Made by a program: the position numbers and the translations under genes
The notes under the pieces: model-generated
The model's input: the letters and a program-made list of their open reading frames with translations, nothing else
What the model was told of the DNA's origin: nothing
Databases searched by the model: none
Assembly (NCBI RefSeq): GCF_001905905.1
Contig: NZ_LIVT01000019.1
Coordinates: 1 to 64,000 of the forward strand
Direction: 5' to 3'
Length of the DNA stretch: 64,000 bases
DNA from: Streptomyces sp. CB02366
Lineage (GTDB): Bacteria > Actinomycetota > Actinomycetes > Streptomycetales > Streptomycetaceae
In this document: positions 16,152 through 34,529 of the stretch, piece by piece
Numbering within the stretch: position 1 is the stretch's first letter
How the letters are laid out: every line of letters begins with the position of its first letter

Positions 16152-16160
16152 GCGTGCCGG

Positions 16161-17806: not shown

Positions 17807-18118
17807 GCGAATCTTCCCCCGGCTTCTAGGCGTTGATCAACGCACGTCAACCTACCGTCAGCGCAGCTTCGGCCTGGAGCTGTCACGGTTCGCACGTCCG
17901 CTGGTCTTACCCACCACTCGCCCCAGCTCCAGTCTCTGCAACTTCTTCGTCTGTCGATGTCACGCTCCCGGCCTTCCTGCTCCTTGGGGTGGGTGAGGGG
18001 CGGCGCTCGGCCGCCCGGCGCGGAAGGCGGGGCGGCGGTGGGTTGCATCGTTGAGGGCGGGGCGCGGTGGGGCGAAGGCGGCCAGGGCGGTCGCAGCCGT
18101 CGGGAGGCCGGTGCCGAG

Positions 18119-18394
18119 GTGCTGGTGGGGTGGTGCGGGTGGCTGTGCGCGGTGGTGTTCGTGGTCGGGCTGCTGCGCGGCTGGTGGTGGGGCGGGGATC
18201 TGCGGAACCTGCTGTGGGGGCTGGGTGATCCGGCGGCCGAGGCGGTCGAGGAGCGGCGTGGGTGGCCGATGGTTCCGGTGCTGTCTGCGGTGCTGGGTGC
18301 GGTGGGGGCGCGGCGGTGCTGGCTGGCGGCCGCGGACATGGTGCTCGGGACAAGGCCCCGTATTCGGCGGCGTAGTGGTGCGGGGCGCGGGTGA
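18119..18394 (+). CDS. Small membrane protein, first gene of the transfer/pilus cluster
   Basis: 91 aa from GTG 18119, chosen because GGAGG lies upstream and the hydrophobic protein begins here; the frame is open to 17957 without coding character. One clear membrane helix (WLCAVVFVVGLLRGWWW) and a second weaker one (VPVLSAVLGAVGARR). Its stop overlaps the start of the next gene (GTGATG), so the two are translationally coupled. Paired small membrane proteins upstream of a TraG/VirD4-like ATPase are typical of Streptomyces transfer clusters; the exact role is unknown. Confidence 0.65.
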   Translation: MLVGWCGWLCAVVFVVGLLRGWWWGGDLRNLLWGLGDPAAEAVEERRGWPMVPVLSAVLGAVGARRCWLAAADMVLGTRPRIRRRSGAGRG

Positions 18395-18885
18395 TGGGGG
18401 CCGGGGTGACGTTGCTCGACGGCGTGGACGTGGTCGTCTCCGCGGTGTGGGCGGTGTGGGGGTGGTTGCTCCTGTTGCTCGTCGTCGCGGGGGCCGGCGG
18501 GGCGGGGGTCAGGGCCTGGTGGGTGTGGCGGGCGCGGGAGGCGTTGCGGGAGCGGTGCGTCGTGGCGTTGGTGCCGGCGGCCGGGTTCGACCCGACGCGG
18601 GAGGAGATCGGGCGCCATGCGGTGCGCCTGGCGCGGATTCCCGCTTCGGCGGGGTGGGGGCCCCGGCGGGCGGCCGGGGTGCGGGTCCGTCTGGTGAGTG
18701 TGGAGGGGCAGCTCGCGTACCGGCTGGAAGGGCCGGCTGCGGGGGCGGCGCTGCTGCGGATGCCGTCGTTCACCGATGTCGATGTGGCCGATGAGGACAG
18801 CGGGAGGAGCGTTGCCGTGCCGCGGATCCGGTTCGACGGCGTCCCGCCGCTGCCCGGGGACGAGGACCAGGGCGAGGGGGCGTGA
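18391..18885 (+). CDS. Membrane protein of the transfer/pilus cluster
   Basis: 164 aa (GTG 18391, alternatively ATG 18394). One strong N-terminal membrane helix (VWGWLLLLLVVAGAGGAGV), then a cytoplasmic domain with R-A-R-E-A-L-R-E-R, a beta-rich stretch (V-R-V-R-L-V-S-V-E-G-Q-L-A-Y-R-L-E-G) and an acidic C-terminus. Overlaps the VirD4-like gene by GTGA. By position it could be the membrane partner of that ATPase, as small membrane components accompany coupling proteins elsewhere; no sequence family recognised. Confidence 0.7.
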   Translation: MMGAGVTLLDGVDVVVSAVWAVWGWLLLLLVVAGAGGAGVRAWWVWRAREALRERCVVALVPAAGFDPTREEIGRHAVRLARIPASAGWGPRRAAGVRVRLVSVEGQLAYRLEGPAAGAALLRMPSFTDVDVADEDSGRSVAVPRIRFDGVPPLPGDEDQGEGA

Positions 18886-21137
18886 GCGGGATGGTGTCGT
18901 TGAGGAAGAAGCACGGCCCGAGGGGCGAGGGCGGTTCGGGCGGCGGCGGACAGCGGTATGTGGCTCGGGCGGAGTTGGTGCTGGCCCGGCCCGACCATCA
19001 GCAGTTGGCGGCGCCGGGCCTTGACCCGGACCCGTTGCAGATGATGGCCGCTGCCTGCGCGCAGGTGGACAGCGGGCGCGGCGAGGAGGCCGAGCTGGTT
19101 CTCGACCTGGTCCCGGTGTCCGGGTGGAGGGTGGCCCGGTGGCGGCGGCGGCTGATACGGCGTGCGCAGACGCGGGGGCCGTCCGCGTACGGGAAGCAGC
19201 TCGGTGGGAGCGGCGGGGGCGGGTGGTGGTCGGTGGTGTCCGCGGGGTTGAGCGGCGGCTCCAGCGGTGCGGGGGCGAGCCGGAGGTCCTTGCCTCGTAA
19301 GACCGATCTGGCCGAGGGGGTGGGGAAGTTCCTGCCGGCGGCGGACATGCAGGTCTTCGCGGTGCAGGTGCTGATCCGGGTGAGCGCTGCCCACCCGGCC
19401 CGTGCGCAGGCCCGGCTGCATCAGGTGATGTCGGTGATGGACGCCTGGTCGGGCGAGAACTGGTTCCGCCCCGTGGGCCCGCGCCTGGCCGGCTGGCGGC
19501 CCTACAGCAGTGTGTGGTGGCGGCGGCGTTCCTTTGACCGGCGGTTCGCGTCGGGCGAGTTCGCCCCGGCGCGCCGGCAGTGGGTCACCGGGCAGGAGAT
19601 CGCGGCGTTGCTCAAGCCGCCGTCGGCGCACTGCGCGGCCCCGAACGTGCTTCGGACGGGCGGGGTGGTGCCCCCGGCGCCGGCCGACTTGCCGGAGTGG
19701 ACCGGGCAGGCGGGCATGGTGCCGCTCGGGCTGGTGACCGGGACGGCCGGGAAGCGGTACCTGGCGGCGGTGCCGCAGAAGAACGTGCTGTTCGCCGCCT
19801 CGTTCGGGAAGTCGGGGTTCGGGAAGTCGGAGTTGGCGCTGCTCCAGCTCCTCGCCCTGGCCTACGGCGGGCTCGGGGGGTGGTTCCTGGACCCGCACGG
19901 GGCCGCCGTCCAGCGGGCGCTGCCCTACCTGACCCATCCTGCCGTCGCGGACCGGGTCGTGCTGATCGACCTGAGCGCGAAGGACCCGGCGGCGCGGATC
20001 GCGGCGTGGAACCCGCTGTCGATGGAGGGGCGGGACGCCTCCCAGATCCAGGACGTGGTCGGCGCGGTCGTCGGCGGGCTCGCCTCCGCCCAGGGGTGGG
20101 GAGACCGGGCGCCGCGGGCCCGGTCGATCCTCTCCCACGCCGTGCAGATCCTCGCCTACCTCGCGCTGCGGATGTGCGAGGCGGGGCGGCCGGACCTCCA
20201 GCCCACGATCTTCTCCATCCCTCGGCTGCTCACCGACGAGGACTGGCGGGAGGGGGTGCTGCGGCACGTCCCCCCGCGCATGGCCCGGTTCTGGAGGACG
20301 ACGTTCCCGAAGTACGAGAGCGGGGCGGTTCCGGTGGTGACGCAGACGCTGGAGCAGCTGGAGACCTCCGACTCGCTGCGCGCGTTCCTCGGCCAGCCCC
20401 GCTCCAGCTACGACGTGCGGCGGGCGATGGACGAGAACAAGGTGGTGCTGCTGCGGTGCTCGGGCACCGGCGGCGGGGACCAGATCATCACCAGCCTGCT
20501 GCTGTTCGACCTGTTCCTGGCCGGGCTCTCCCGGGAGGGGGTGCCGCCCGAGGACCTGGAGACGATGTTCGCGTACGCGGACGAGTTGACGGCGATCGAC
20601 GGGGCGTCGCGCGGCTACGTGGCTGCGATCCTGGAGCAGCTGCGCAAGTACGAGGTCCGCCTGACCGGGATGACGCAGATGGTCATGCGGCTGTCGGAGG
20701 AGACCCGCCAGGCCCTCATGCAGAACCAGTCGCTCCTTTCGGCGACGGCCGCGGACAGCGACGAGGCGTCCTTCGTCGCCAAGCGGTTCCCCGGCATCGC
20801 GCCGGCCACGATCGAGCAGCTGTCGAAATACGAGTACGTGATGTCCACGATGCTGAACGGCCGCCGCACCACCCCCTTCCGGGTTCGGGGCGTGGCGGTC
20901 CATCAGGTCCTGGCCGACTACTGCCGGCCCGATCTGCTGCCGGAGCTCTTCGCCACGATCGACGCCACCATGGGGCGCCGGACGATCGGCGAGATCCTGC
21001 GCCGCCTCGACGGGGGCGAGGGGGAGCCGGGCCTGGACGACGAACTCCTCTCCCGCCTTTGCACCGGCTCCGGCGCCCGGCCCGTATCCGTGCCCGCCGG
21101 GGCGTACGACACCACCACACGAAGCGAGGTCTCCTGA
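18882..21137 (+). CDS. VirD4/TraG-like coupling ATPase
   Basis: 751 aa from GTG 18882, overlapping the previous gene by 4 bases. After a Gly-rich, basic N-terminus comes a region dealing with the membrane side, then the P-loop NTPase. Walker A is at about 307-317 (SFGKSGFGKSE), F-L-D-P-H-G-A-A follows as an early strand, and a Walker B-like strand F-A-Y-A-D-E-L is near 562. A sensor-like region lies at GMTQMVMRLSEETRQALMQN and QSLLSATAADSDEASFVAKR. This is the HerA/VirD4 superfamily layout: hexameric motors that push DNA or protein through a secretion channel. Cotranscribed with a replication-relaxation protein and the tad genes, it is the likely conjugation motor; a pilus-associated ATPase is the alternative. 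Confidence 0.85.
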   Translation: MSGMVSLRKKHGPRGEGGSGGGGQRYVARAELVLARPDHQQLAAPGLDPDPLQMMAAACAQVDSGRGEEAELVLDLVPVSGWRVARWRRRLIRRAQTRGPSAYGKQLGGSGGGGWWSVVSAGLSGGSSGAGASRRSLPRKTDLAEGVGKFLPAADMQVFAVQVLIRVSAAHPARAQARLHQVMSVMDAWSGENWFRPVGPRLAGWRPYSSVWWRRRSFDRRFASGEFAPARRQWVTGQEIAALLKPPSAHCAAPNVLRTGGVVPPAPADLPEWTGQAGMVPLGLVTGTAGKRYLAAVPQKNVLFAASFGKSGFGKSELALLQLLALAYGGLGGWFLDPHGAAVQRALPYLTHPAVADRVVLIDLSAKDPAARIAAWNPLSMEGRDASQIQDVVGAVVGGLASAQGWGDRAPRARSILSHAVQILAYLALRMCEAGRPDLQPTIFSIPRLLTDEDWREGVLRHVPPRMARFWRTTFPKYESGAVPVVTQTLEQLETSDSLRAFLGQPRSSYDVRRAMDENKVVLLRCSGTGGGDQIITSLLLFDLFLAGLSREGVPPEDLETMFAYADELTAIDGASRGYVAAILEQLRKYEVRLTGMTQMVMRLSEETRQALMQNQSLLSATAADSDEASFVAKRFPGIAPATIEQLSKYEYVMSTMLNGRRTTPFRVRGVAVHQVLADYCRPDLLPELFATIDATMGRRTIGEILRRLDGGEGEPGLDDELLSRLCTGSGARPVSVPAGAYDTTTRSEVS

Positions 21138-22066
21138 TGCCGCGGTCGGGCCTGTCCCGGTTCGGGCAGATGCTGCTGCCCGTCCTCTACCAGCACCGGC
21201 TGCTCGCCACCGGGCAGCTCCACCGGCTCCTGAGCCCGCACACCGCGCGCCCCGTCTACTTGCTGCGGCAGCTCGGGGAGCTGCGGGCGATGGGCCTGGC
21301 GGAGTCCACCGACCGGCGTACCAGCCGGATGGGCCGGTGCGAGCAGCTCTGGTACATCACTCCGCTGGGCTGTGAGGTCGTCGAGGCCGGCGGGGAGGTG
21401 CAGCCCCGCTCGTACCGCATCACGCCGAAGGCCGCCGCCTCGCCGCTCCAGGAGCACACCTTGGCCGTCGGGGAGACCGGGATCGTGTTCTGCGAGTGGG
21501 CCCGCCGCTACGGCGACGACTGCGGGCCGCTGGACTGGGAGCCGGAGTTGGCCCACCGGGTCCGCGACGGCGACAGCCGGCTCGGGGACGACGCCTTCCT
21601 CATCCCCGACGCGGTCCTGCGCTACACCCGCGACCAGGACGGCCGCCGGCAGATGATGACGTTCTTCCTGGAGATCGACCGCTCCACCATGGAAGTCGCC
21701 CGGCTGGGCAGGAAGCTGAGCACCTATGCCCGCTACAGCACCTACTTCCCCCACTCCCCCGGGCGCCGGGCCCGGGCGGCGATCCGGGAGGCGTGGCGGG
21801 AGCGCTACCCGGCTTTCCCCCGGCTGCTGATCGTCCTGTCCGGGGCGAAGGAAGCCGTTCTGGAGCGTCGGATCGATGACCTTCGGGCTCTTGCCGCCGC
21901 GGACTCCCGGGTCACGGCGGGCGGGTATCTGCGGGCCGGGGTGACGACGATTCAGCTCCTGTCCGAGCGCGGGCCGTTCGCCCCGGTGGTCACTTCCGTT
22001 CTCGGCGATCCGAAACCGACCGACGTGCGGCTCACGGCGATGTCCGAGGTCCCCGCCGCGGGGTGA
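21137..22066 (+). CDS. Replication-relaxation (Replic_Relax) family protein
   Basis: 309 aa, ATG 21137 overlapping the upstream TGA, with GAGG eight bases ahead. N-terminal winged helix (QMLLPVLYQHRLLATGQLHR, VYLLRQLGELRAMGLAE). Then a nuclease-like beta region: the conserved DAFLIPDAVLRYTRD and MTFFLEIDRSTMEVARLGRK, and Y-x-R-Y-S-T-Y. The family (PF13814 as I recall) is found with Streptomyces and Gram-positive plasmids and ICEs and is proposed to act in plasmid DNA relaxation. The E-I-D-R-S-T and conserved D-A-x(2)-I-P-D motifs are reminiscent of PD-(D/E)xK nucleases, so it may be the relaxase-like partner of the VirD4-type motor; inference. Confidence 0.85.
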   Translation: MPRSGLSRFGQMLLPVLYQHRLLATGQLHRLLSPHTARPVYLLRQLGELRAMGLAESTDRRTSRMGRCEQLWYITPLGCEVVEAGGEVQPRSYRITPKAAASPLQEHTLAVGETGIVFCEWARRYGDDCGPLDWEPELAHRVRDGDSRLGDDAFLIPDAVLRYTRDQDGRRQMMTFFLEIDRSTMEVARLGRKLSTYARYSTYFPHSPGRRARAAIREAWRERYPAFPRLLIVLSGAKEAVLERRIDDLRALAAADSRVTAGGYLRAGVTTIQLLSERGPFAPVVTSVLGDPKPTDVRLTAMSEVPAAG

Positions 22067-22146
22067 ATGAGGAATCGAATTGAGGGCGCGCTTTCAAAAA
22101 GCACCGGCCATCGTGCCGATGAGTCGACATTCAGAGGGAGGGTTTT

Positions 22147-22377
22147 GTGTGCTCTGCGGCAAGTGACGTGCAGTCAATTTCCAAATCGGAAGAACCTTTG
22201 TCCGCAATGGCCCTTTATGTCACGATAATTGATCTAGAGGGCGAGATGGTCGCCGCTGACCGGTGCGTAAGCTACGGAACCAGACCGCGCGGTTGGTTTC
22301 GGTTCCCTCAAGATCCGATCCCGCAGAGTCGCCCGAGGTCAGATGACGGCTTGGCATATGCACTGGAGGTGCAGTGA
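22147..22377 (+). CDS. Small hypothetical protein
   Basis: 76 aa from GTG 22147, six bases after GGGAGGG. Less GC-biased than its neighbours. Contains ALYVTIIDLEGEMVAADRCV and a Pro/Arg-rich C-terminus; no membrane segment. Ends GTGCAGTGA, overlapping the lipoprotein start. No family recognised; the strong ribosome-binding site and tight spacing support it being real. Confidence 0.6.
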   Translation: MCSAASDVQSISKSEEPLSAMALYVTIIDLEGEMVAADRCVSYGTRPRGWFRFPQDPIPQSRPRSDDGLAYALEVQ

Positions 22378-22985
22378 TCAGTTCAGCGCATGCGAATCAG
22401 GGAACACGGCCCGGCCGCAACCGAACGCGACCGGCCGGTCTGCTCATGGCCGCCTGTGTGCTCATCGCACTTCCGGCGTGCTCCTCGAATAAGTCCCCTT
22501 CCAACGACGCGAAAGCGACCGTGTCGCCTTCCGCGTCCCCCTCCGCGACAAAGTCCCTGGACCCGTCCGAGGCGGCGGAAGCAGAGGCGGTAAAAGCCTA
22601 TTCCGGTTACTGGCGGGAGATGGAGCGCGCCTACGCCGCAGCGGACGTCGACGCCTCCAAGCTCAAGGACTATGCGAACGGCGTTGCCCTGGTGAAGGCC
22701 CAGGTGGACACCGAGCGCATGAAGAAGAAGGGCAGCACCCTGTCCGGCGGGGTCACGATCACCAACGCCACCGTCACCCGGCTCGACGACAGCAAGAAGC
22801 TGCTCAAGGCGGAGCTGTCCAGCTGCCTGGACGTCACGAAGTGGATCTCGCTGGACAAGGAGGGCAAGCCCGTCGCCCTGCCCTCCACGCGGGTGACCAA
22901 GTACGTGGCCACGGCGACCATGGAGCGCTGGACGGACGGCTGGAGGGTCCTCACGGCTCAGCCTCACGCGGACCAGCCGTGCTGA
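22374..22985 (+). CDS. Secreted lipoprotein of the transfer/pilus cluster
   Basis: 203 aa from GTG 22374, preceded by GGAGGT and overlapping the upstream stop. Lipobox LIALPACSS gives a lipid-modified Cys at about residue 36. A Ser/Pro linker (A-T-V-S-P-S-A-S-P-S) leads to an NTF2-like or cone-shaped alpha+beta domain (AYSGYWREMERAYAAADVDA, then VTITNATVTRLDDSKKLL, SSCLDVTKWISLD and W-T-D-G-W-R-V-L). Anchored outside the membrane. NTF2-like domains often serve as structural modules in secretion channels (VirB8-like), so it may form part of the envelope channel. Confidence 0.78.
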   Translation: MISSAHANQGTRPGRNRTRPAGLLMAACVLIALPACSSNKSPSNDAKATVSPSASPSATKSLDPSEAAEAEAVKAYSGYWREMERAYAAADVDASKLKDYANGVALVKAQVDTERMKKKGSTLSGGVTITNATVTRLDDSKKLLKAELSSCLDVTKWISLDKEGKPVALPSTRVTKYVATATMERWTDGWRVLTAQPHADQPC

Positions 22986-23881
22986 CCCGCAAGGCCATCA
23001 CGGCCCTGGCCGCCGTGTCCCTCCTGTGCGCGGCGCCTGCCGCGGTGGTTGATGAACCCGACATCGACGTCGGGGGGTGCAGCACGGAGTGGATCTGCGC
23101 CGAAGTCGGCACGGGCGGCAAGCCCGGCGGGCGCCCCTCGGGAAGCGGTGGGGGAAGCGGGGCGGGAAGCAGCGCCGGCGGGAAGCCCTCAGGCGCCGGA
23201 AGCAGCAAGCCTCCCAACTTCATGCCGTGCGAGATCCGCAAGCTCGACCCGCAGCCGGGGCCCGGCAGCGACCTGTGGGAGGGCCACAAGCCCGGCGACG
23301 GGGCCATCTACGTCAACACCTGCGCGAGTTCGGGGATGGGCGAGGGCACGGACGGGGCGGTGGGGCTCGCCTTCTGGGCCGCCGACCAGCCGCCGCCCGG
23401 CGTGCCCCCGGAGGTCCTGGCCCAGCGCGCCGTCGACCAGATGCTCCTCAAGGGCCCCGCGATCGGGATCACGCCGAAGCCCGGCGGCAGGGGGGTGGTC
23501 GGCATGCCGGTGTACCTGTGGACCGAGAAGGGCCCGGAGACGTACGGGCCGAACACCGCGAGCGCGTCGGCCGGCGGCATCACCGTGACGGCGACCGCGA
23601 AGGTCAGCCGGATCGTGTGGCAGATGGGCGACGGGAAGACGGTCACCTGCACCACCGCCGGCACCCCCTACAAGGCCGCGTACGGCAAGAAGCCCTCCCC
23701 GGACTGCGGGCACCGCTACGAGGCCCCCTCCTCGACCACCGGCTCCGGCACGTACCACGTGACCGCGACGTCGACCTGGACGATCGGGTGGGAGGCCACC
23801 AGCGGGCAGAGCGGCCAGCTCACCGAGGTACGCGACAGCGCCGTGGACATCACGGTCGCCGAGGTCCAGGTCCTCAACTAG
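22979..23881 (+). CDS. Secreted protein of the transfer/pilus cluster
   Basis: About 300 aa from GTG 22979, overlapping the lipoprotein gene by 7 bases. Signal peptide (KAITALAAVSLLCAAPAAV). Then a Gly/Ser/Lys-rich flexible segment (GGKPGGRPSGSGGGSGAG), followed by a domain with W-E-G-H-K-P-G-D-G-A-I-Y, VGLAFWAADQPPPGVPPEVL, W-Q-M-G-D-G-K-T-V-T-C and a C-terminal beta region (TYHVTATSTWTIGWEATSGQ). Four to five Cys suggest disulfides. I recognise the genomic position (actinomycete tad loci often carry such proteins) but not a named family. Confidence 0.75.
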   Translation: MLTRKAITALAAVSLLCAAPAAVVDEPDIDVGGCSTEWICAEVGTGGKPGGRPSGSGGGSGAGSSAGGKPSGAGSSKPPNFMPCEIRKLDPQPGPGSDLWEGHKPGDGAIYVNTCASSGMGEGTDGAVGLAFWAADQPPPGVPPEVLAQRAVDQMLLKGPAIGITPKPGGRGVVGMPVYLWTEKGPETYGPNTASASAGGITVTATAKVSRIVWQMGDGKTVTCTTAGTPYKAAYGKKPSPDCGHRYEAPSSTTGSGTYHVTATSTWTIGWEATSGQSGQLTEVRDSAVDITVAEVQVLN

Positions 23882-23916
23882 CCATCTCCAGCACCACGTA
23901 GAAGGACACGAAGCCC

Positions 23917-24609
23917 ATGGAATCCCCTGCCGCGCCGACGGTGCCGCGCCCGGCCGCCCCGTCGGCCGCCCGGCCCGAACTTCCCATCACCGCCGCTGTG
24001 CCGGTCAAGCGGGAGCGGCGCTGGTCGGTCGCCGCCCTCTGCGTCGTTCTCGCAGCCGTCGCCGGACTTGGGGCGGCGGCCGCCGTCACCTCGGCGGGCG
24101 ACCGTACGAAAGTGCTGGCGGTCGCCCGCGACGTCCCGGCCGGCCAGGCGCTGACCGAAGCGGACCTGGCCGTCGCCGAGGTCAGCTCCGACGCCGCCCT
24201 GGGCCCGGTTCCCGCCGGGCAGAAGACGTCGATGCTCGGCAAGCGCACCGCGGTCGATCTGCGCAAGGGCGGACTGCTCACCGCCACGCAGCTCACGGCG
24301 GGGACCGGGCTGGGGGACGACAAGCAGCAGGTGGGCGTGCAGGTGAAGCGCGGTCAGGCCCCGGCCGGCACGCTCGCTCCGGGCGACCGGGTCCTCGCCG
24401 TCACCACCCCCGCCCAGGGCGAGCAGCAGGCCGGGGCGGCCGAAGCCCCGCCCTCGACGATCGGCGCGGTCGTCGTGACGGTCTCCCGGCCCGACGCGTC
24501 GGGCAACGTGGTCGTCAACCTGGCCGTCGCCCAGAACAAGGGCCCGCTGCTGGCCACCCGGGCCGCCCAGGGCCGTATCGCTCTCGTCCGCGAACCGCGA
24601 GGGCAGTGA
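23917..24609 (+). CDS. cpaB: SAF-domain protein, CpaB/RcpC-like
   Basis: 230 aa, ATG 23917 after a GAAGGACACG ribosome-binding site. Cytoplasmic Pro-rich start, membrane helix at about 37-60 (SVAALCVVLAAVAGLGAAAA), then the SAF domain: VLAVARDVPAGQALTEADLA, GKRTAVDLRKGGLLTATQL. The second half carries A-P-G-D-R-V-L-A-V and VVVTVSRPDASGNVVVNLAV. CpaB/RcpC proteins stabilise or gate the outer part of Tad pilus machines; in this Gram-positive setting it would sit on the outer membrane face. Followed with GTGA overlap by the TadZ-like gene, as expected for a tad operon. Confidence 0.85.
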   Translation: MESPAAPTVPRPAAPSAARPELPITAAVPVKRERRWSVAALCVVLAAVAGLGAAAAVTSAGDRTKVLAVARDVPAGQALTEADLAVAEVSSDAALGPVPAGQKTSMLGKRTAVDLRKGGLLTATQLTAGTGLGDDKQQVGVQVKRGQAPAGTLAPGDRVLAVTTPAQGEQQAGAAEAPPSTIGAVVVTVSRPDASGNVVVNLAVAQNKGPLLATRAAQGRIALVREPRGQ

Positions 24610-27039: not shown

Positions 27040-28001
27040 CGTCCTCCCAGCTCGCTCTCGTCGCCGCCTGCTGCACCGTGGTGGCTCTCCTGGGAGTTCT
27101 CGCGGCCGTGCGGGAGTTCCGCGGCCGGGTCGTGGACCCGTCGAAGCCGGCGTCCCGTGCGGCCGGCCGTCTGGCGCGCGCCAAGGCGGAGCTGCCCGCC
27201 CGGTGGCAGCAGCGGTGGCGGCACCTCCTGGTCACCGCCGGGGTCGTCGCGCTGCTGGTGTGGGCGTGGACGGGGTGGCCGGTGCACGGCTTCCTGGCCG
27301 GCGCCGCCGTGGTGGGGCTGCCCTACGTGCTGAACCCGGGTACCGCGGCGACGCTGCGTATCGAGCGCCTGGAGGCGCTGGGGCAGTGGCTCAACCACCT
27401 GGCCGGGGTCCACCAGGCCGGTATCAGCCTGACGCAGACGATCCGGGCGTCCGCGAAGGCGGCCCCCGCCCCGATCGCGCCGAACGTGCGGGCGCTGGCC
27501 GGCCGGTTGAGCGCGGGCATGGAGGCGGGCGACGCGTTCTCCCTGCTGGCCGACGAGCTGGCCGACGGCGTCTCCGACCACGTCGTGCTGCTCCTCCAGT
27601 CCCACGCCGTGTACAAGGGGCTCGGGCTCTCCGATGCTCTGGAGGCGCTGGCCGTCACCATCCATCAGCAGGCCGCAGACGCCCGCGACATCGAGGCCGA
27701 CCGGGCCAAGGTCCGCAAGAGCTCGCGGATGGTCTCCACGGTGATCTGCGTCGTCGTGGTCGGCTGCATGCTCAACGACGCCTGGTCGGGGTGGTACCAG
27801 TCGCCGGTCGGGCAGCTCGTCCTGGCCGCCCTCGGCGCCCTGTTCGCCTACACGCTGCGCTGGCTGCGGAAGATCGCCCGGACGCAGCCCGACCCGCGGC
27901 TCATCGACCCGCTGCCCGAGGACCGGCGCCTGCGTCTGCTCTCGGCGGGCCAGTTCGGCCCCGGGCAGCAGGCCCGTCCCGCTCTGGAGGATGTCCGGTG
28001 A
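27036..28001 (+). CDS. tadB: TadB-like inner-membrane platform protein (GspF family)
   Basis: 321 aa, ATG 27036 overlapping the tadA stop (ATGA). Membrane segments near 5-25, 66-88, 90-104 and two at the C-terminus (VSTVICVVVVGCMLNDAW, LVLAALGALFAYTL). The T2SSF module is between: LGQWLNHLAGVHQAGISLTQ, SKA-type helix, DAFSLLADELADGVSDHVVL. Forms the membrane platform with TadC on which TadA turns. Intact and translationally coupled on both sides. Confidence 0.9.
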   Translation: MTSSQLALVAACCTVVALLGVLAAVREFRGRVVDPSKPASRAAGRLARAKAELPARWQQRWRHLLVTAGVVALLVWAWTGWPVHGFLAGAAVVGLPYVLNPGTAATLRIERLEALGQWLNHLAGVHQAGISLTQTIRASAKAAPAPIAPNVRALAGRLSAGMEAGDAFSLLADELADGVSDHVVLLLQSHAVYKGLGLSDALEALAVTIHQQAADARDIEADRAKVRKSSRMVSTVICVVVVGCMLNDAWSGWYQSPVGQLVLAALGALFAYTLRWLRKIARTQPDPRLIDPLPEDRRLRLLSAGQFGPGQQARPALEDVR

Positions 28002-28894
28002 TCCCGATGGAAGCCGTTGTGCCCGCAGCCGCCGCCGGGGCTCTGATCGGTCTCGCCGTACGGGCGGCCCTGCCCGCGCGGCGCGACCTCACCTCGGCCC
28101 TGGAGCGTCTGGACGTCGCCACGAGCAGCCCGGCGCTGCCCCCGGTGGCCGCGTCGGCGGCGGCCGGCGGGTTCCAGGACCGGGTGGGGGCCCGGCTGCT
28201 GAGGGAGTTCGGGGGCCGCATCACCCTGCCCCACCACGATCTGAACCTGCTGAGGATCAGCCCGGCCGCGCACCTGGGGAAGCGGTTCCTGTTCGCCCTG
28301 TACGGGCTGCTGCTCCCCCAGCTGCTACAGGCCCTCCTCGCCGCGGCCGGGACTCCCTTCCCCTACGCGGTGCCGGTGCTGGTGTCGCTCGCTCTCGCCG
28401 CCCTGTTCTGGTTCTGGCCGGTGAAGGAGGTCGCCCGGGAGGCTGCTGCCGCCCGGCTGATCGTGCGGCACGCCGCCGCCTCCTACCTGGAGCGGGTGGC
28501 GCTCGCCCGCATCGCGAACTCCGGCGCCGCGCAGGCCCTGACCCAGACCGCCGAAGTCGGCGACGGGTGGATCTTCGTCCGGATGCGGCAGGTGTTCCAC
28601 CAGGCCGACCTCGCGGGCGTCACCGTCTGGGACGCGCTGAAGCAGCTCGGCGAGGAACTCGACATCCCCGAACTGACCCGCCCGGCCGACACCCTCGCCC
28701 TCGCCGGTGACGGGGCCGCCGTCTACACCACGCTCCAAGCGCAGGCCCGGCAGCTGCGCGTCGCTCTGCTCTCGGACGCGAAGGCCCAGGTCAACGAGGC
28801 CAGCGAGGCCATGGTCCTGCCGGTCACCCTCGGCGTCGTCCTCATGCTCACCTTCGTGATGATCCCCGTCACGATGACCATTCTCGGAAGCTGA
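27998..28894 (+). CDS. tadC: TadC-like inner-membrane platform protein (GspF family)
   Basis: 298 aa from GTG 27998 (GTGA overlap; ATG 28007 is a possible alternative). N-terminal membrane helix (AVVPAAAAGALIGLAVRAA), two central helices (FLFALYGLLLPQLLQALLAA, VPVLVSLALAALFWFWPV), T2SSF-like helical domain (SYLERVALARIANSGAAQAL, VTVWDALKQLGEELDIPEL) and a C-terminal helix (MVLPVTLGVVLMLTFVMIPV). Second platform subunit of the Tad machine. Confidence 0.9.
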   Translation: MIPMEAVVPAAAAGALIGLAVRAALPARRDLTSALERLDVATSSPALPPVAASAAAGGFQDRVGARLLREFGGRITLPHHDLNLLRISPAAHLGKRFLFALYGLLLPQLLQALLAAAGTPFPYAVPVLVSLALAALFWFWPVKEVAREAAAARLIVRHAAASYLERVALARIANSGAAQALTQTAEVGDGWIFVRMRQVFHQADLAGVTVWDALKQLGEELDIPELTRPADTLALAGDGAAVYTTLQAQARQLRVALLSDAKAQVNEASEAMVLPVTLGVVLMLTFVMIPVTMTILGS

Positions 28895-28907
28895 AAAGGA
28901 AGCACCC

Positions 28908-29096
28908 ATGGACATTCAGACCCTGACCGTGTGGATCCAGGGCCGCTACGCGGCGCTCAAGGCCGGCAAGGACGCCGGGGCGACCTCCACCGAACTGGCC
29001 GTCATCACCGGAGCGCTCCTGCTGGGCGCGGGCCTCCTCGTCGTCGCGGTGCGCACGAAGCTGGCGGAGAAGATCGGCATCATCAACGGCGGCTGA
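28908..29096 (+). CDS. flp: Flp-type major pilin candidate
   Basis: 62 aa, ATG 28908 with AAAAGGAAG upstream, 13 bases after tadC. A short leader ends at ...K-D-A-G, followed by A-T-S-T-E-L-A-V-I-T-G-A-L-L-L-G-A-G: the Glu at +5 after Gly and the hydrophobic stretch are the class III (Flp) prepilin processing signature. Prepilin peptidase is not in the window. As the only short pilin between tadC and the TadE-like genes, it is the likely shaft subunit. Confidence 0.85.
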   Translation: MDIQTLTVWIQGRYAALKAGKDAGATSTELAVITGALLLGAGLLVVAVRTKLAEKIGIINGG

Positions 29097-29120
29097 ACGG
29101 CCGTCGAGGAGACAGCTCAC

Positions 29121-29555
29121 ATGAAAGGGGGACACGCAGTGACGGCAGGGAAGCCCAGAGGCGTACGCGGCTGGCGGCTGCGGGCCCGGGGCGACCGCGG
29201 GTTCGGCAGCGTGGAGCTCGCCGTCCTGGCCCTCGTCGTTCTCGCGTTGGCCTTCACCGCCCTCCAGGCGGGCCTGTACTTCCACGGGCGCAAGGCGGCG
29301 CAGTCCGCCGCCCGCCACGGAGTCGAGTCCGGGCGCCAGTTCGGCTCCGGGCCGGGCGACGGCGTCGCCCAGGCGCAGGCGTTCCTGGCCCGGTTCGGCG
29401 GCAGCGTGGAAGGGGCCAGCGTGTCCTCGTCGGGCAGCAGCGCCCAGCAGATCCGCATCACCGTGCGGGGGAAGGTCGCCACGCTCGTGCCCGGTCTGAC
29501 GCTGGAGATCGTCCAGCACGCCGAAGCACCCGTCGAACGGTGGACCACCCCATGA
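29121..29555 (+). CDS. TadE-like pseudopilin
   Basis: 144 aa from ATG 29121 (a GTG at 29139 is an alternative). Positively charged leader, then R-G-F-G-S-V-E-L-A-V-L-A-L-V-V-L-A, with Glu five residues after Gly, and a long hydrophobic helix to about 55. The rest is a small soluble domain (F-L-A-R-F-G-G-S-V, IRITVRGKVATLVPGLTLEI) as in TadE proteins. Minor pilins of this type prime or cap the Tad pilus. Overlaps the next gene by ATGA. Confidence 0.85.
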   Translation: MKGGHAVTAGKPRGVRGWRLRARGDRGFGSVELAVLALVVLALAFTALQAGLYFHGRKAAQSAARHGVESGRQFGSGPGDGVAQAQAFLARFGGSVEGASVSSSGSSAQQIRITVRGKVATLVPGLTLEIVQHAEAPVERWTTP

Positions 29556-30010
29556 GCATCCGTGCCCGCCTCCGGTCCGCCCGGCCGGGGCTGTGCCGTG
29601 ACCGGGGGTCCTACGCCCTGGAGACGGCGGTCCTCGCCCCCGTCATGATCAGCCTGCTGCTGCTGCTGATCGCGTTCGGGCGCGTCACCGACGCCGACGG
29701 GGCCGTCGACTCCGCAGCCCGCGCGGCCGCCCGCGCCGCGTCCCTGGAGCGCGACGCGGGCACAGCCCAGAGCGCGGCGCGGGCGGCCGCGGACCGCAGC
29801 CTCCACGGAGAGGGCATCACGTGCACGGTCTCCAGCGTCGACGTCGACACCGGCGGTTTCTCCCTGGACCTCGGCGTGGACGCGACGGTCACGGCGAAGG
29901 TCGCGTGCACGGCGCCCCTGTCCGACCTCGGGCTGCCGGGCCTGCCCGGCACCAAGACCCTCACCGCTTCGTGGTCCAGTCCCATCGACACCTACCGGGG
30001 GCGCGGATGA
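29552..30010 (+). CDS. TadE/TadF-like pseudopilin
   Basis: 152 aa, ATG 29552 overlapping the previous stop. Leader R-D-R-G-S-Y-A-L-E-T-A-V-L-A-P-V followed by ISLLLLLIAFGRV: the TadE-type processing site with Glu and a single helix. C-terminal beta-rich domain with two Cys (ITCTVSSVD, KVACTAPLSD) that could form a disulfide outside. Paralogous in layout to the gene before it; coupled to the next by ATGA. Confidence 0.85.
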   Translation: MSIRARLRSARPGLCRDRGSYALETAVLAPVMISLLLLLIAFGRVTDADGAVDSAARAAARAASLERDAGTAQSAARAAADRSLHGEGITCTVSSVDVDTGGFSLDLGVDATVTAKVACTAPLSDLGLPGLPGTKTLTASWSSPIDTYRGRG

Positions 30011-30471
30011 CCACCCGTACCCGGCGCTGGGCACGGGCGCGCCTCGATGCGCTGTCGGCGGGCGGCCGGCGTGAGGAAGGGTCGGTGTCGATGTTCTTCG
30101 CCCTGGCCACGATCGCGGTCCTGATGGTGATGGGGCTCCTCGTCGACGGCGGCGGGGCGCTGAACGCGGCGAACCGTGCCACGTCCGTCGCGCAGGAAGC
30201 CGCCCGTACCGCCGGGCAGCAGATCGACCCCGCTCAGGCGATCGAGGGCACCGCCATCACGATCGACCCGGACGCCGCCGTCGGGGCGGCCCAGGACTAC
30301 CTGGCCGCCGCCGGCGTCCAGGGCGACGTACAGGTCACCGACGGCGGGCAGGGCCTCCGCGTCACCGTCCACGACACCTACACCACCCTGTTCGCCCAGT
30401 TCGTGGGCAGGGGCACCATCCACGTCACCGGCACCGCGACCGCCCAACTGATGACCCAAGCTGGAGGCTGA
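30007..30471 (+). CDS. TadG-like pilus protein, short form
   Basis: 154 aa, ATG 30007. Basic leader, E-E-G-S-V-S-M-F-F-A-L-A then VLMVMGLLVDGGGALNAANR, the typical TadG N-terminus (hydrophobic helix followed by D-G-G-x(2)-L). The remainder (A-I-T-I-D-P-D-A-A-V, DYLAAAGVQGDVQVTDGGQG) is short; full TadG proteins carry a large vWA-like domain that is missing here, as is usual in actinomycete Tad loci. Confidence 0.83.
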   Translation: MTTRTRRWARARLDALSAGGRREEGSVSMFFALATIAVLMVMGLLVDGGGALNAANRATSVAQEAARTAGQQIDPAQAIEGTAITIDPDAAVGAAQDYLAAAGVQGDVQVTDGGQGLRVTVHDTYTTLFAQFVGRGTIHVTGTATAQLMTQAGG

Positions 30472-30474
30472 CCC

Positions 30475-33400
30475 ATGCCCCGCACCCCCGCCCCGCTGCG
30501 CACCGCCGGTGTCCTGCTGCGGGCCCTGCTCGGCCTGGCCCTCCTGTTGGCCCTCATCGCCGGTGCCCCCTACCTGCTCCTGGCCGTGGGGCACCAGCCC
30601 ACCGAACTGTCCGGCGGCCTGGACCTGCTGATGCAGCAGGACGACGGAACCCTGTTCCTCGTCGTCCTCACCTGCCTGGGCTGGGCCGGGTGGGCGCTGT
30701 TCACCCTCTCCGCCCTGGTCGAGTTCGTCGCCGTGCTCCGCCGCCGCTCCGCCCCCAGGATCAAGGGGCTCGGCGGCATTCAGTCACTCGCCTCGTTCCT
30801 CATCGGCAGCATCGTGCTCCTGGCCCCCACCGCGGCCTCCGCCGCGACCAGCACGCCCGCCGTCGCCGTCAGCACCGTCCACGTCGCCCAGGCCGGACCC
30901 CACTCCCCCGCAGGCGCAGGGGCTACCGCGGCGGCCCAGGAAGCGGACCGGCCCCAGCACACCGTCCAGTCCGCCACCGAACTGCCCTGGGACCTCGCCG
31001 AGGAGTACCTGGGCGACGGGAAGCGGTGGAAGGACATCGCCGCCCTCAACCCGCACATCCCGCAGCTCGCCACCGGCGACCAGTTCCTTCCCCAGGGCGC
31101 CGTCCTCCACCTGCCCGCCGACGCCCGCCCCGCCGCTCCGGCCAGGAGCACCGCCCCGGTGGCCAACTCCACCGCCGATCGCGACGAGGCCCCCCGCACG
31201 CCCGCCCACACCTCGTACAGCGGGGCCGCGGGCGCGGGCGCCGCGCAGCCGGACCGGACAGCCGCGGACGAGGCCCCGGCCGCTCAGCGGCAGTACACCG
31301 TCGAGGCCGGTGACAGCCTGTTCGGCATCGCGCAGGACCAGCTCGGCGACGGTGAGCGGTGGACCGATCTGTACGAGGAGAACCGGGGCAGCAAGCAGCC
31401 GAACGGGCAGACGTTCACCGACCCCGACCTGATCTACCCCGGCCAGGAACTCGTCCTGCCGCATGCCGGGCCCGCCGGCGTCGAGGACGCCGCCCTGGAG
31501 AGGAGCACCCCGCCGCCCGACCGGACGGCGCCCCCGCAGGCGGAGGCGGACATCGGGGCGGAGGAGACCCCGGACCGGCAGGAGCCGGACTCGGCTGCCC
31601 CGGCACCGGGGCCGAGCCGTACGGCGAAGCCCACTCCCCCGGCCCCCGCCCCGTCCACGGCCCTGCCCTCGACCCCTCCCAGCACCTACCCGGCGCCCGC
31701 CGCGCCCAGCACCGCCCCCGCCGCCTCCACGGACGGCGCCGAAGACCAGGAGCGGGCGGGCTCCCGCGTCGGGGTGCTCGGGCTGGCCGCTACCGGCGCC
31801 CTGGCCGCCGGAATCCTCGCCGCTGTCGGCGCCCGCCGGATCCTCCAGCAACGCCGCCGCCGGCCCGGGCGGCGGATCGCGATGCCCCAGGGGCAGGCCG
31901 CCCGGACGGAAACGGCGCTGCGCTCCGCCGACGCCGGCGTGGAACTCGCCCTGCTGGGCGCAGCCCTGCGAACCGCCGCCCTGCACCTGGCCGACGAGGG
32001 CCGCCCGCTGCCGGACCTGGCCGCCGTCCAGCTCGGGGCAGAAGGAATCCGGCTCCACCTGGACGCCCCCGCCCCGCCCTGCCCGCCGTTCACCGCGGGC
32101 CCTCAGCAGAGCATCCGGTGGTGGTGCCCGGCCGGCTCCCAGGAGCTGCTGCCCGAGGACGAACTCCGCGAAGTCGACGCCCCCTACCCCGGGCTCGTCG
32201 CCCTGGGCCAGGACGAGGACGGCGCGATCGTCCTGGTCGACCTCGAACACCTCGGGGCCCTGCACCTGACCGGGGCCGCCCGGATCGACGTGCTGCGCAC
32301 CCTGGCCGTCACACTCGCGCTGTCCCCGCTCGCGGGTCAGCTCGACCTCGCCGTCGCGGGTGAGGACACCGCCCCGGGGCTGTCGATGCTCGACGGCGAC
32401 CGCATCACCCCCTACCCCGATCTCGCCGGGGCGGTGGAGGCGATGACCCGTCACCACGACGAGCAGCAGCAGGTCCTGGAGGCGCTCGGGGAGCAGGGGA
32501 CGCTGGGCCAGGCCCGCCCGTGCGAGGACGTCGGTGAGCTGTGGCCGCTCGTCGTCGTCGCGGACCTCGACACCTGCAACGCCACCCCGGAGGCGGTGGA
32601 GGGTCTGTGGGAGCGGCTCGGCGGACCGGTGCGCACGGCCATGGCGATCATCACCAGCAGTACCGGCACACCGCCGGACGACGTCGCATGGTCGGTCGAC
32701 ACGGACGCGCCGGCCGTCACGGTGCCGGGCACCGACGTCAGCGTGATGCTGTCGGCGTGCTCCGCCGAGGAGTACGCCGACATCCTGGAGCTGGCGCTCA
32801 CCGCGGACTCCCCCACCGACGTCCCCGCCCCCGCACCGGCACAGCAGCCCCGCGGTGACGAACGGTCGGAGAGCGACACAGCCGAGAGCGACACGGCGGC
32901 GCCGGGGCCCGCCGCGCCCGCCGAGGCGGGGGCGGCCGACGGTGAGGCGCCGCTGAAGGGTGATCGGCGTAGTGCTCTCGCCGACCTTGCCGACCTGGAG
33001 GACGAAGCCCCCGACGAGGAAGAAGGAGAGGAGAAGAAGGAGGAGGAGGGCGGGGCGGGTGCCGAGGCGGGGCGGCAGGAGGCGGCTTCGCGGAGGAAGC
33101 CCTCCCCCGCCGCCGCGGCGGCCTCCCTCTCGGACGTCGTACTGCCGGCGGTTGTCTCCGCGCCGCGCGTCAGCGCCCGCATCCCCCTGCCCACCGAGCC
33201 GGAACAGGACGCCGCCCCTGTGGTGCGGGTGCTGGGACCGGTGGATGTACAGGGCGCGCGCGGCACCGTGGCCTCCAACCGCCGCACGCTCGCCCTGGAA
33301 CTGACGGTCTGGTTGGCCCTGCACCCCGGGGCCACCAACCACCAGATCGACGAAGTCCTCGCCCCCGGCGGCCGGGTCACCCGCGACACCCGCAACTCCC

Positions 33401-33957
33401 GGGTCGGCGACGTCCGCCGGTGGCTGGGAGCGGACGCGGACGGGAACCGCTACCTCCCCCACGTCAGTACCCAGCCGGACAAGCTCTACCGGCTCGCCGC
33501 CGATGTGGACTGCGACTGGACACGCTTTCAGCGCCTCGTCGCCCAGAGCCACGCCACCGCCGACGCCGAGACGGGCCGGCGTCTTCTGCACCAGGCGCTC
33601 GACCTGGTCGCCGGGCGCCCGTTCTCCGGGATCCCGCCCCGCCGCTACGTGTGGGCCGAACCGCTGGTGCAGGACATGATCTCCGCGATCGTCGACGCCG
33701 CCGACGACCTCGCCGCCCAGTACCTCGACCAGGAAGATGGCCGCGGCGCCCTGTGGGCGGCGGCCCGGGGCCTGGACGCAGCGCGGGAAGTGGAAAGCCT
33801 GTGGCGGCACAAGTTCCGCGCCCTGGCACTCCTGGGTGACGACAACGGCCTGGAGACCGCTGTCCGCCAGCTCGAAGCGCTCCTCCTCGACCTCGGCTGC
33901 ACCATGAGCGAAGAGACCGGAGCCATCCTCCAGGCGCTCCAGGCCACCCGCCGCTGA
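30475..33957 (+). CDS. Large membrane protein with two LysM domains and a SARP-type BTAD domain
   Basis: 1160 aa, ATG 30475, four bases after the TadG-like gene. Order: membrane helices near 9-40, 60-85 and 102-122; LysM-like domain about 160-215 (P-W-D-L-A-E-E-Y-L-G-D-G); second, clearer LysM about 270-332 (YTVEAGDSLFGIAQDQLGDG ... YPGQELVLPH). A Pro-rich linker leads to a membrane helix near 431-453; a large cytoplasmic region (about 475-830) follows, then an acidic/Lys-rich linker. From about 915 comes a winged-helix-like unit plus bacterial transcriptional activator domain (VLGPVDVQGARGTV ... FQRLVAQSHATADAETGRRL ... AVRQLEALLLDLGC). It could link peptidoglycan outside to a regulatory or scaffold domain inside. 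LysM-BTAD proteins occur in actinomycete tad loci; function unestablished. Confidence 0.85.
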   Translation: MPRTPAPLRTAGVLLRALLGLALLLALIAGAPYLLLAVGHQPTELSGGLDLLMQQDDGTLFLVVLTCLGWAGWALFTLSALVEFVAVLRRRSAPRIKGLGGIQSLASFLIGSIVLLAPTAASAATSTPAVAVSTVHVAQAGPHSPAGAGATAAAQEADRPQHTVQSATELPWDLAEEYLGDGKRWKDIAALNPHIPQLATGDQFLPQGAVLHLPADARPAAPARSTAPVANSTADRDEAPRTPAHTSYSGAAGAGAAQPDRTAADEAPAAQRQYTVEAGDSLFGIAQDQLGDGERWTDLYEENRGSKQPNGQTFTDPDLIYPGQELVLPHAGPAGVEDAALERSTPPPDRTAPPQAEADIGAEETPDRQEPDSAAPAPGPSRTAKPTPPAPAPSTALPSTPPSTYPAPAAPSTAPAASTDGAEDQERAGSRVGVLGLAATGALAAGILAAVGARRILQQRRRRPGRRIAMPQGQAARTETALRSADAGVELALLGAALRTAALHLADEGRPLPDLAAVQLGAEGIRLHLDAPAPPCPPFTAGPQQSIRWWCPAGSQELLPEDELREVDAPYPGLVALGQDEDGAIVLVDLEHLGALHLTGAARIDVLRTLAVTLALSPLAGQLDLAVAGEDTAPGLSMLDGDRITPYPDLAGAVEAMTRHHDEQQQVLEALGEQGTLGQARPCEDVGELWPLVVVADLDTCNATPEAVEGLWERLGGPVRTAMAIITSSTGTPPDDVAWSVDTDAPAVTVPGTDVSVMLSACSAEEYADILELALTADSPTDVPAPAPAQQPRGDERSESDTAESDTAAPGPAAPAEAGAADGEAPLKGDRRSALADLADLEDEAPDEEEGEEKKEEEGGAGAEAGRQEAASRRKPSPAAAAASLSDVVLPAVVSAPRVSARIPLPTEPEQDAAPVVRVLGPVDVQGARGTVASNRRTLALELTVWLALHPGATNHQIDEVLAPGGRVTRDTRNSRVGDVRRWLGADADGNRYLPHVSTQPDKLYRLAADVDCDWTRFQRLVAQSHATADAETGRRLLHQALDLVAGRPFSGIPPRRYVWAEPLVQDMISAIVDAADDLAAQYLDQEDGRGALWAAARGLDAAREVESLWRHKFRALALLGDDNGLETAVRQLEALLLDLGCTMSEETGAILQALQATRR

Positions 33958-34529
33958 CAACGCCGGGGAGAGGGCGTGCCGCTGACCCGATTCCTGACCC
34001 TCGCAGGTCAGCGGGCACATCCCCGCCCTGCTGGCACCGCTGACCCAAGCGCTGCCCCAAGCCGTCATCGAACAAGGGTTCCTCACAGGGCCGGATCGTT
34101 CTCCCGCTTCAAGAAGTCAGGAAACGGAGGATCCCGCCGCTGGCCCCTGTGCCTCACAGCGCGTACAAGGGCCCGGCGGACACCCACCGGTGTCACGGCC
34201 GCTCGCGTCGGTGGCGAGGCCGCCGGGCGGGCTGACCGCTGCGAGCAGGAGAAACGGGCGCGACCCACGGTTAACAGTGCTCCCGCCACTCCCCGCGTCA
34301 CCCCAGCCCCCGGGGGGGATAGCCAGCGCAACCGCCCAGCCCCGACGCCTGCGGCTCTGAACCTCACCGCCGACTCGCCGAGCGCCAGGCCGTGGCGCCC
34401 CGCGAACGGCAGGCCATGGTGACGTGCGAGCGCAAAGTGCCCCGACCTGGGGTGGTGAGTGGAACTGACCACCTGCGGGAATGGAGGGCGCGGGCAGGAG
34501 GAAAGGTGGCGGGGCCCGGGGCGAGCAGC
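33958..34529. other. Region downstream of the pilus cluster without intact gene
   Basis: A GTG at 33976 has an excellent ribosome-binding site (GGGAGAGG), but its frame quickly loses coding character. The neighbouring frame then reads VSGHIPALLAPLTQALPQAV with natural composition, as if one indel separated start from body. Could be a broken small last gene of the cluster. Nothing else seen. Confidence 0.4.

Follow-up and report, generated by a model that had tools for sequence, protein, structure and literature searches.

Coupling ATPase, Replic_Relax, and Tad pilus genes on a Streptomyces contig

The question raised by this locus is why genes of plasmid conjugation should stand ahead of genes for a pilus. 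The locus lies in a 64,000-base stretch of DNA from Streptomyces sp. CB02366 (bases 1 to 64000 of the 64,469-base contig NZ_LIVT01000019.1, in a genome of 7.37 Mb and 44 contigs); this whole stretch is called the window below. In sixteen plus-strand genes at 17957 to 33957, those for a coupling ATPase and a Replic_Relax protein come first and a Tad/Flp pilus cluster follows, and the gene caller, the translations, and profile searches bore out the gene names and the order given in an earlier note on this DNA. In the reading toward which we lean, the Tad pilus brings mating cells together for actinomycete plasmids that use a type IV secretion system (T4SS), and the window's copy has kept the coupling protein, the relaxase, and the pilus and lost the channel. 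To our knowledge, no pilin or conjugative pilus is known for Gram-positive T4SSs of this class, and if a Tad pilus goes together with T4SS, coupling protein, and relaxase across several families, it would be a candidate for the filament of donor-recipient contact in actinomycetes.

Because a ParA/ParB pair is encoded at 47347 to 49700 of the window, the contig probably represents all or part of a plasmid; comparison of the contig ends revealed neither an overlap nor a terminal inverted repeat. DNA homology to the S. anulatus plasmid NZ_CP109269 (86%) extends from 17936 to 34000, and since it begins at 17936, the range of the locus was set at 17957 to 33957. The window genes are under purifying selection relative to that plasmid (ratio of nonsynonymous to synonymous substitution rates [dN/dS], 0.10 to 0.43 across the 15 genes measured), and none of the reading frames for the ATPase, relaxase, and pilus proteins is broken. 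The genes, with the largest gap between them, are as follows.

17957 to 18394 (start uncertain, about 17957 to 18038), plus strand: first gene of the set, small protein (tblastn with the product of NZ_CP109269 12983 to 13339, 86% over 100 amino acids, E = 3e-50)
18394 to 18885, plus strand: small protein with one apparent membrane segment (tblastn with the product of NZ_CP109269 13357 to 13938, 84% over 119 amino acids, E = 5e-60; dN/dS 0.43)
18882 to 21137, plus strand: VirD4/TrwB-type coupling ATPase, 751 amino acids (AlphaFold2 model, Foldseek, VIA; dN/dS 0.19)
21137 to 22066, plus strand: Replic_Relax protein, candidate MOB_C-type relaxase with a winged-helix N-terminal domain and a possible nuclease-like C-terminal domain (PF13814; dN/dS 0.15)
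22067 to 22373, plus strand: 307-bp gap, from the coordinates, spanned by a small open reading frame (ORF) of uncertain status at 22147 to 22377
22374 to 22985, plus strand: lipoprotein-like secreted protein (from sequence; homologues adjoin Tad in relatives; dN/dS 0.33)
22979 to 23881, plus strand: secreted protein (homologues adjoin Tad in relatives; dN/dS 0.27)
23917 to 24609, plus strand: CpaB-like SAF protein (PF08666, 1.1e-7; TIGR03177, 28 bits, under the cutoff of 71)
24606 to 25481, plus strand: TadZ-like protein (TIGR03815, 21 bits, under the cutoff of 154)
25474 to 27039, plus strand: TadA secretion ATPase (T2SSE PF00437, 1.2e-20; TIGR03819, 157 bits, under the cutoff of 373; dN/dS 0.11)
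27036 to 28001, plus strand: TadB platform protein (T2SSF PF00482, 2.8e-10)
27998 to 28894, plus strand: TadC platform protein (T2SSF PF00482, 7.8e-6, 26.3 bits versus a cutoff of 25.2)
28908 to 29096, plus strand: Flp-like pilin, 62 amino acids (G-x4-E processing motif; dN/dS 0.10)
29121 to 29555, plus strand: TadE pseudopilin 1 (PF07811, 2.3e-8)
29552 to 30010, plus strand: TadE pseudopilin 2 (PF07811, 2.3e-9)
30007 to 30471, plus strand: TadG-like protein (PF13400, 5.1e-7)
30475 to 33957, plus strand: 1,160-amino-acid protein with apparent membrane segments, LysM (PF01476, 1e-6), and a C-terminal BTAD domain in the last 285 amino acids (PF03704, 1.6e-4, 22.5 bits versus a cutoff of 22.1)

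Linkage of the coupling ATPase to T4SS and Tad genes in Streptomycetaceae

A Gram-positive T4SS precedes the set on the same strand in S. anulatus NZ_CP109269, in Kitasatospora NZ_CP108405, and in pSTRVI01; that of NZ_CP109269 consists of TcpC (2.4e-16), a TcpE-like protein (weak match), VirB4/TcpF (AAA_10, 1.1e-63), a VirB6-like protein (weak match), and NlpC/P60 (4.6e-24). These three plasmids share with the window the order of the ATPase and Tad genes and, in NZ_CP109269 and pSTRVI01, a Replic_Relax gene in between, but unlike the window they retain TcpC-VirB4-VirB6-NlpC, or the later part of it, upstream. On pSGZL, VirB4 lies about 17 kb upstream of the set, and S. anulatus NZ_CP108641 has its T4SS on the opposite strand, about 57 kb off. 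In NZ_CP108405, the Replic_Relax gene (3974 to 5263, minus strand) precedes the T4SS in the opposite orientation, and no such gene was detected beyond the ATPase gene of that plasmid.

Among 199 Streptomyces genomes, the window's included, the ATPase was found in 32 and VirB4 in 32, with 30 common to both (Fisher P = 7e-31, uncorrected for kinship). The ATPase occurred without VirB4 in the window's genome and one other (G167), where an NlpC match adjoins the ATPase on a 17.7-kb contig; VirB4 occurred without the ATPase in two genomes (G104 and G164). In G104, the lipoprotein-Tad set follows directly after the T4SS genes, and neither ATPase nor Replic_Relax was detected. Of the 35 ATPase places in the 31 other ATPase-positive genomes, 30 had a same-strand VirB4 gene no more than 30 kb upstream, 23 had a same-strand TadA gene no more than 20 kb downstream (27 within 100 kb), and 21 satisfied both of the near limits. 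Because TadA lay so near at 23 of 35 places, the adjacency of ATPase and TadA is more than chance. Moreover, TadA matches of at least 270 bits were obtained in 25 of 31 ATPase-positive versus 1 of 30 ATPase-negative Streptomyces genomes (Fisher P = 2e-10, likewise uncorrected for kinship). The linkage holds even where the ATPase is 33 to 36% identical, and near chromosome ends too. Thus, most Streptomyces genomes with VirD4-like ATPase and Replic_Relax genes also contain this type of Tad, as the earlier note had anticipated, and the two halves do not occur independently in most genomes, which it had named as the observation that would count against a connection. The one ATPase-negative genome with TadA (G011) carries TcpC- and Replic_Relax-like fragments just upstream of its lipoprotein-secreted protein-CpaB-Tad genes, without an ATPase, and because these fragments persist, its Tad locus looks like a deletion product or remnant.

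In a wider survey, the best 80 of 161 ATPase relatives in a scan of GTDB genomes were examined; they came mostly from Streptomyces and also from Kitasatospora, Streptacidiphilus, Actinacidiphila, Streptantibioticus, Mangrovactinospora, Actinospica, and five Amycolatopsis genomes. Replic_Relax was present at 73 of the 80 loci. At least two T4SS genes lay upstream on the same strand at 57 of the 70 loci with at least 8 kb of upstream sequence, and at least two of TadZ, TadA, TadB, and TadC lay downstream at 29 of the 71 loci with at least 8 kb on that side. The 63 loci with both flanks divided into 19 with T4SS and Tad, 33 with T4SS only, 6 with Tad only, and 5 with neither. The 38 loci without nearby Tad genes represent 37 genomes, of which 34 gave a TadA match at an E value of 1e-40 or less and 29 a match of at least 270 bits, on the same replicon or another. 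A VirB4 match was found in all 11 genomes whose ATPase locus flank had fewer than two same-strand T4SS genes. Many large Streptomyces plasmids carry T4SS-type transfer genes that are mostly missed by typing tools: in PLSDB, 97 of the 120 records bearing the ATPase are typed as non-mobilizable.

Two further arrangements were seen on chromosomes. In two genomes (G069 and G193), diverged VirB4-ATPase-TadA copies lie equally far from the two chromosome ends (about 37 kb and 121 kb), a placement like that of terminal inverted repeats, and in G171 (contig C1, 3804677 and 3814332), a further VirB4 and TadA lie mid-chromosome on opposite strands, about 10 kb apart, resembling the divergent Cutibacterium layout described next.

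T4SS-Tad pairs in other actinomycete families

Outside Streptomycetaceae, divergent T4SS and Tad sets about 3.5 kb apart were found on plasmids of Cutibacterium acnes, Microbacterium sediminis, Brevibacterium, and Brachybacterium avium. The T4SS side reads TcpC-VirB4-membrane protein-(wall hydrolase)-FtsK-like, and the Tad side closes with a LysM gene. When profiles were made from the loci of Streptomycetaceae, they matched TcpC, VirB4, VirB6, CpaB, TadZ, TadA, TadB, TadC, both TadE proteins, TadG, and LysM in all four plasmids (VirB4, 1e-128 to 7e-176; TadA, 6e-52 to 4e-91), and the four also match the lipoprotein profile, the secreted-protein profile, or both. TadA and VirB4 of Brachybacterium may be broken genes, since each was matched in two frames. 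Two Rhodococcus plasmids, distinct from the two without nearby Tad mentioned below, have VirB4 and TadA matches about 54 and 23 kb apart. The pairing of T4SS and Tad therefore recurs, and the coupling protein varies between groups. The lipoprotein-like and secreted homologues come after the LysM gene in Cutibacterium and Brevibacterium, and from that position, these proteins may belong to the Tad machine.

The pairing of tad with conjugation genes is already known from a C. acnes plasmid: a 2017 report placed the tad genes downstream of VirB4, TcpC, and an FtsK-like gene and, in the text available, left a functional link open (PMC5696575). The C. acnes plasmids (p09-9 and p15.1.R1 in the portion available of that report; NC_021086 of strain HL096PA1) resemble the window in having a coupling ATPase, CpaB-TadZ-A-B-C-TadE-TadE-TadG-LysM, and lipoprotein-like and secreted homologues. 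They differ from it in that TcpC, VirB4, a VirB6-like protein, and NlpC are present, the T4SS and Tad sets are divergent, the coupling protein is annotated as FtsK/SpoIIIE, and 50 kb of NC_021086 contains no match to the ATPase or Replic_Relax profile. On Rhodococcus plasmid contigs, secretion ATPases and pilus assembly proteins are named in the accessible text of PMC12915292. T4SS-type integrative and conjugative elements are known in Streptomyces (PMC9513070, in the part available) and other actinobacteria (PMC3218068, likewise); these have a relaxase, a coupling protein, and VirB4 in the same hosts, as the module described here does, one set being on a Streptomyces plasmid, but in the accessible text, the words tad and pilus are absent from PMC9513070 and tadA from PMC3218068. 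A 2025 review of T4SSs has no word beginning with "tad" in its accessible text (PMC12857230), and among the matches listed, with titles and abstract starts of the open literature, there was no description of T4SS-Tad as a recurrent actinomycete module. Within the searches made, three things are new: the Streptomycetaceae form, which has a VirD4-type ATPase together with Replic_Relax; the counts for that form; and the finding that homologous T4SS-Tad pairs recur across several actinomycete families.

Fold and family of the coupling ATPase and the Replic_Relax protein

No Pfam family matched the ATPase at an E value of 0.05, and its top NCBIfam matches (13.9 bits, E = 0.031; 12.7 bits, E = 0.027) were far under their cutoffs, so that no curated type IV coupling protein profile was matched. 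An AlphaFold2 model built from 40 aligned sequences (predicted local distance difference test score [pLDDT], 84.1) had TrwB of R388 as its top structural match (Foldseek, 1.2e-10; VIA, Z = 26.6 over 370 residues, root mean square deviation 3.9). Near-ties within 1 Z were the Legionella pneumophila DotL coupling complex (26.4) and a VirB4 (25.8), and lower scores were obtained for DndH (25.5), HerA (23.6), FtsK (19.0), and TcpA (18.8). The ATPase is thus predicted to have the RecA-like coupling ATPase fold of TrwB, although identity to TrwB is 15%, the match begins at residue 253, and the window protein lacks a Pfam family. The upstream gene at 18394 to 18885 overlaps the ATPase gene by 4 bp, and its product could be a membrane partner of the ATPase.

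The Replic_Relax protein matched PF13814 at 8.4e-28 (98.2 bits versus a cutoff of 25.3), and CONJscan recognizes PF13814 proteins as MobC relaxases (PMC5357655, in the part available). With the TrwB-like fold of its neighbor, this family assignment agrees with the earlier description of both genes as conjugation type. In 41 aligned sequences, D158, E179, D181, and R182 are invariant and K193 is conserved in at least 90%; these residues resemble the D..ExD..K pattern of PD-(D/E)XK nucleases, to which MOB_C relaxases are described as related in the accessible text of PMC12857230. By family, and not by direct alignment, the likeness is to MOB_C relaxases such as TraX of pAD1 and MobC of CloDF13, which share the PF13814/MobC recognition and the PD-(D/E)XK-like residue pattern. 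D158, E179, D181, and K193 may form the active site, and the protein is a candidate MOB_C relaxase that would nick the plasmid. Its model (pLDDT, 91.3) has a MarR-like winged helix at about residues 1 to 90; the VIA list for the whole model consisted of winged-helix regulators throughout, with no nuclease among them. Sequence searches of the PDB gave no informative relative for the ATPase, Replic_Relax, or the BTAD part of the last gene.

Absence of a module-type channel from the window's genome

The VirB4 query that matches 32 of the 199 Streptomyces genomes found no module-type VirB4 in the window's genome. A hidden or degraded T4SS in the window was rejected, since tblastn with TcpC, VirB4, VirB6, and NlpC from two plasmids gave only E values above 0.03. 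The only AAA_10 match in the host genome is another ATPase on contig C2 (6377 to 7975, minus strand; AAA_10 match, 6740 to 7585), which was rejected as the module's VirB4 because it does not match the module VirB4 profile. An NlpC-type match at C2 19183 to 19998 is about 12 kb away, and the two genes might belong to a helper system. TraB-type Streptomyces conjugation has in common with the window the host genus and plasmid transfer, but none of the 13 FtsK/SpoIIIE (PF01580) matches in the genome is on the window's contig (contigs C42 and C5 carry FtsK-type matches); TraB-type transfer was therefore rejected as the plasmid's own system, in keeping with the earlier suggestion of a non-TraB type of transfer.

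Two stretches of the window bear on how the channel may have been lost. Window 11606 to 14324 matches, in two blocks, a segment of NZ_CP108641 that ends beside its T4SS, and window 10283 to 11413 matches a segment upstream of its ATPase; these matches are consistent with loss of the T4SS from the window plasmid by deletion near 11.4 to 11.6 kb. Loss to an assembly gap rather than deletion is possible. An Mrr-type restriction endonuclease gene (10282 to 11049, minus strand) lies at the edge of the possible deletion.

Since the T4SS was not found in its genome, transfer of the window plasmid is doubtful without help: either a channel comes from elsewhere or transfer has been lost. Both of these accounts are compatible with a mating role for the pilus, the second as far as intact relatives are concerned, and we regard each as possible though rather unlikely. 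If the plasmid is mobilizable, its ATPase and relaxase would use the T4SS of another element in the same cell and the pilus would be kept for contact; channel-less pairs of VirD4 coupling protein and PF13814/MobC accompany each other on two streptococcal mobilizable elements (PMC5357655, in the part available), and the host does have the AAA_10 ATPase and NlpC-type gene on C2, although that ATPase fails the module VirB4 profile. If the locus is instead a decaying remnant, the ATPase, relaxase, and pilus would be out of transfer and on their way to being lost, for which the lack of a module-type VirB4 in the genome and of any T4SS gene in the window speaks, together with the more advanced remnant in G011; the intact frames and low dN/dS values argue otherwise, although dN/dS is averaged over time before the loss.

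Co-divergence and a proposed role of the pilus

The divergence of the ATPase tracks that of VirB4 (r = 0.955, n = 59) and of Replic_Relax (r = 0.916, n = 86), as TadA tracks TadB (r = 0.974, n = 40), and VirB4 and TadA co-diverge with an r of 0.835 over 23 loci. On NZ_CP108641 (27190 to 42138), the ATPase/Replic_Relax pair is about 90% identical to the window's, the Tad proteins are 38 to 50% identical, and the LysM gene is 67% identical; the pilus module appears to have been exchanged there. These comparisons suggest that T4SS, coupling protein, and relaxase act as one unit and that Tad is a unit kept but exchanged, which would suit a contact filament better than a channel part. Because the T4SS (TcpC, VirB4, VirB6-like, and NlpC) belongs to the set in relatives, the Tad machine is not likely to be the channel.

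In intact relatives, the Replic_Relax protein would recognize and nick the plasmid, and the TrwB-like ATPase, which the product of the small gene directly before it may anchor to the membrane, would carry the DNA to a Gram-positive T4SS channel of TcpC, VirB4, VirB6-like protein, and cell-wall hydrolase. The Tad machine (TadZ/A/B/C, Flp, TadE/E/G, CpaB, and the LysM protein) would build a thin pilus by which the mating cells establish or maintain their contact. In the window plasmid, in which the channel genes are absent, what remains would be one half, that for DNA processing and the pilus, of a conjugation module that recurs in actinomycetes. The earlier note had proposed pilus-assisted or contact-dependent transfer; the link between conjugation-type genes and Tad that prompted it stands, but it overlooked the T4SS of the relatives, and its proposal meets the difficulty that no T4SS was found in the window's genome.

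Several results weigh against a mating role for the pilus. The proposed link between pilus and transfer comes from gene content and linkage, and with no channel found in its genome, the window itself cannot show a working system. More than half of the loci with both flanks (33 of 63) have T4SS genes and no Tad in the flank, and a strong TadA match is missing in 8 of the 37 genomes whose ATPase locus has no Tad nearby. Near the scanned T4SS-Tad pairs outside Streptomycetaceae, the ATPase and Replic_Relax profiles found nothing, so these pairs share only part of the module, and at two Rhodococcus T4SS plasmid loci, neither annotation nor profiles revealed Tad genes within 18 kb. The C-terminal domain of Replic_Relax has only weak structural matches, to restriction enzymes (AspBHI, 8.7e-4 with a TM score of 0.15; MspJI; PaqCI). 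ATPase divergence tracks TadA less well (r = 0.621, n = 41; near clade, 0.475, n = 27) than it does VirB4 and Replic_Relax, and therefore Tad seems to be exchanged more freely than the rest of the module; over 9 near-clade loci, VirB4 and TadA gave an r of only 0.306 (P = 0.051).

In another account, the two sets are simply neighbors: the Tad pilus would let the host adhere to surfaces or to other hyphae and would share a long-standing plasmid backbone with conjugation genes. The exchange of Tad between modules, the places where TadA is 26 to 80 kb from the ATPase, and the 3 of 37 genomes that gave no TadA match at 1e-40 or less all favor this account. We nevertheless judge it unlikely, a little more so than either fate of the window plasmid considered above, because hardly any of the ATPase-negative Streptomyces genomes searched has this type of TadA (1 of 30) and because, in other actinomycete families, it is encoded next to T4SS genes on plasmids that have a different coupling protein. 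A pilus-based conjugation, in which T4SS-free plasmids that retain the coupling ATPase, relaxase, and Tad genes would move their DNA through the Tad machine or along it, is very improbable. Least probable of all is a Tad machine serving DNA uptake, which has an actinobacterial precedent in the role reported for the Flp pili of Micrococcus luteus (PMC4322843, in the part available) but sits poorly with a linkage to coupling protein, relaxase, and T4SS and with a set in which 0 of 16 genes was recognized as an uptake gene.

Gene junctions and the pilus gene set

The earlier note had described a single operon in which almost every gene overlaps the next. Overlaps of 1 to 8 bp occur at 10 of the 15 junctions, so that this description was somewhat too strong; the other five have gaps of 307 bp (22066/22374), 35, 13, 24, and 3 bp. 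The largest is directly 3' of Replic_Relax and sets that gene apart from those downstream. A comparable gap follows Replic_Relax in NZ_CP109269 (17110/17417), and in four relatives (L054, L059, L082, and L084), several kilobases separate Replic_Relax from the lipoprotein gene. The 307-bp gap is likely a boundary between two transcription units, and a single operon is doubtful because of this gap, because of the multi-kilobase inserts at the same point in some relatives, and because the ATPase co-diverges less closely with TadA than it does with VirB4 or Replic_Relax. Promoter and terminator scans were below shuffled background (0 versus 0.3 and 2 versus 3.8) and have no bearing on the operon question.

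TadA, TadB, TadC, TadE, and TadG-like proteins with Pfam matches over cutoff identify a Tad/Flp (type IVc) pilus cluster, and the 62-amino-acid ORF supplies an Flp pilin with a processing site, its G-x4-E motif preceding a hydrophobic stretch. This ORF had no Pfam match, and an equivalent was turned up by the same scan in 9 of 23 relatives. The cluster had been called complete; the components just named are present, but completeness was not shown, since one distant query found no TadV prepilin peptidase in the window at an E value below 1, the chromosome being outside that search. A LysM- or BTAD-annotated gene ends the Tad set on all nine of the annotated plasmids examined, and the 30475 to 33957 product could be a membrane-bound, wall-sensing regulator.

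Two neighboring regions of the window were also noted. At 15489 to 16976 on the minus strand, a sortase gene adjoins one for a CHRD-like protein, which matches an LPXTG-type anchor weakly, and tandem AbiTii-family genes, each matching at about 6e-25, lie at 36147 to 37758 on the minus strand.

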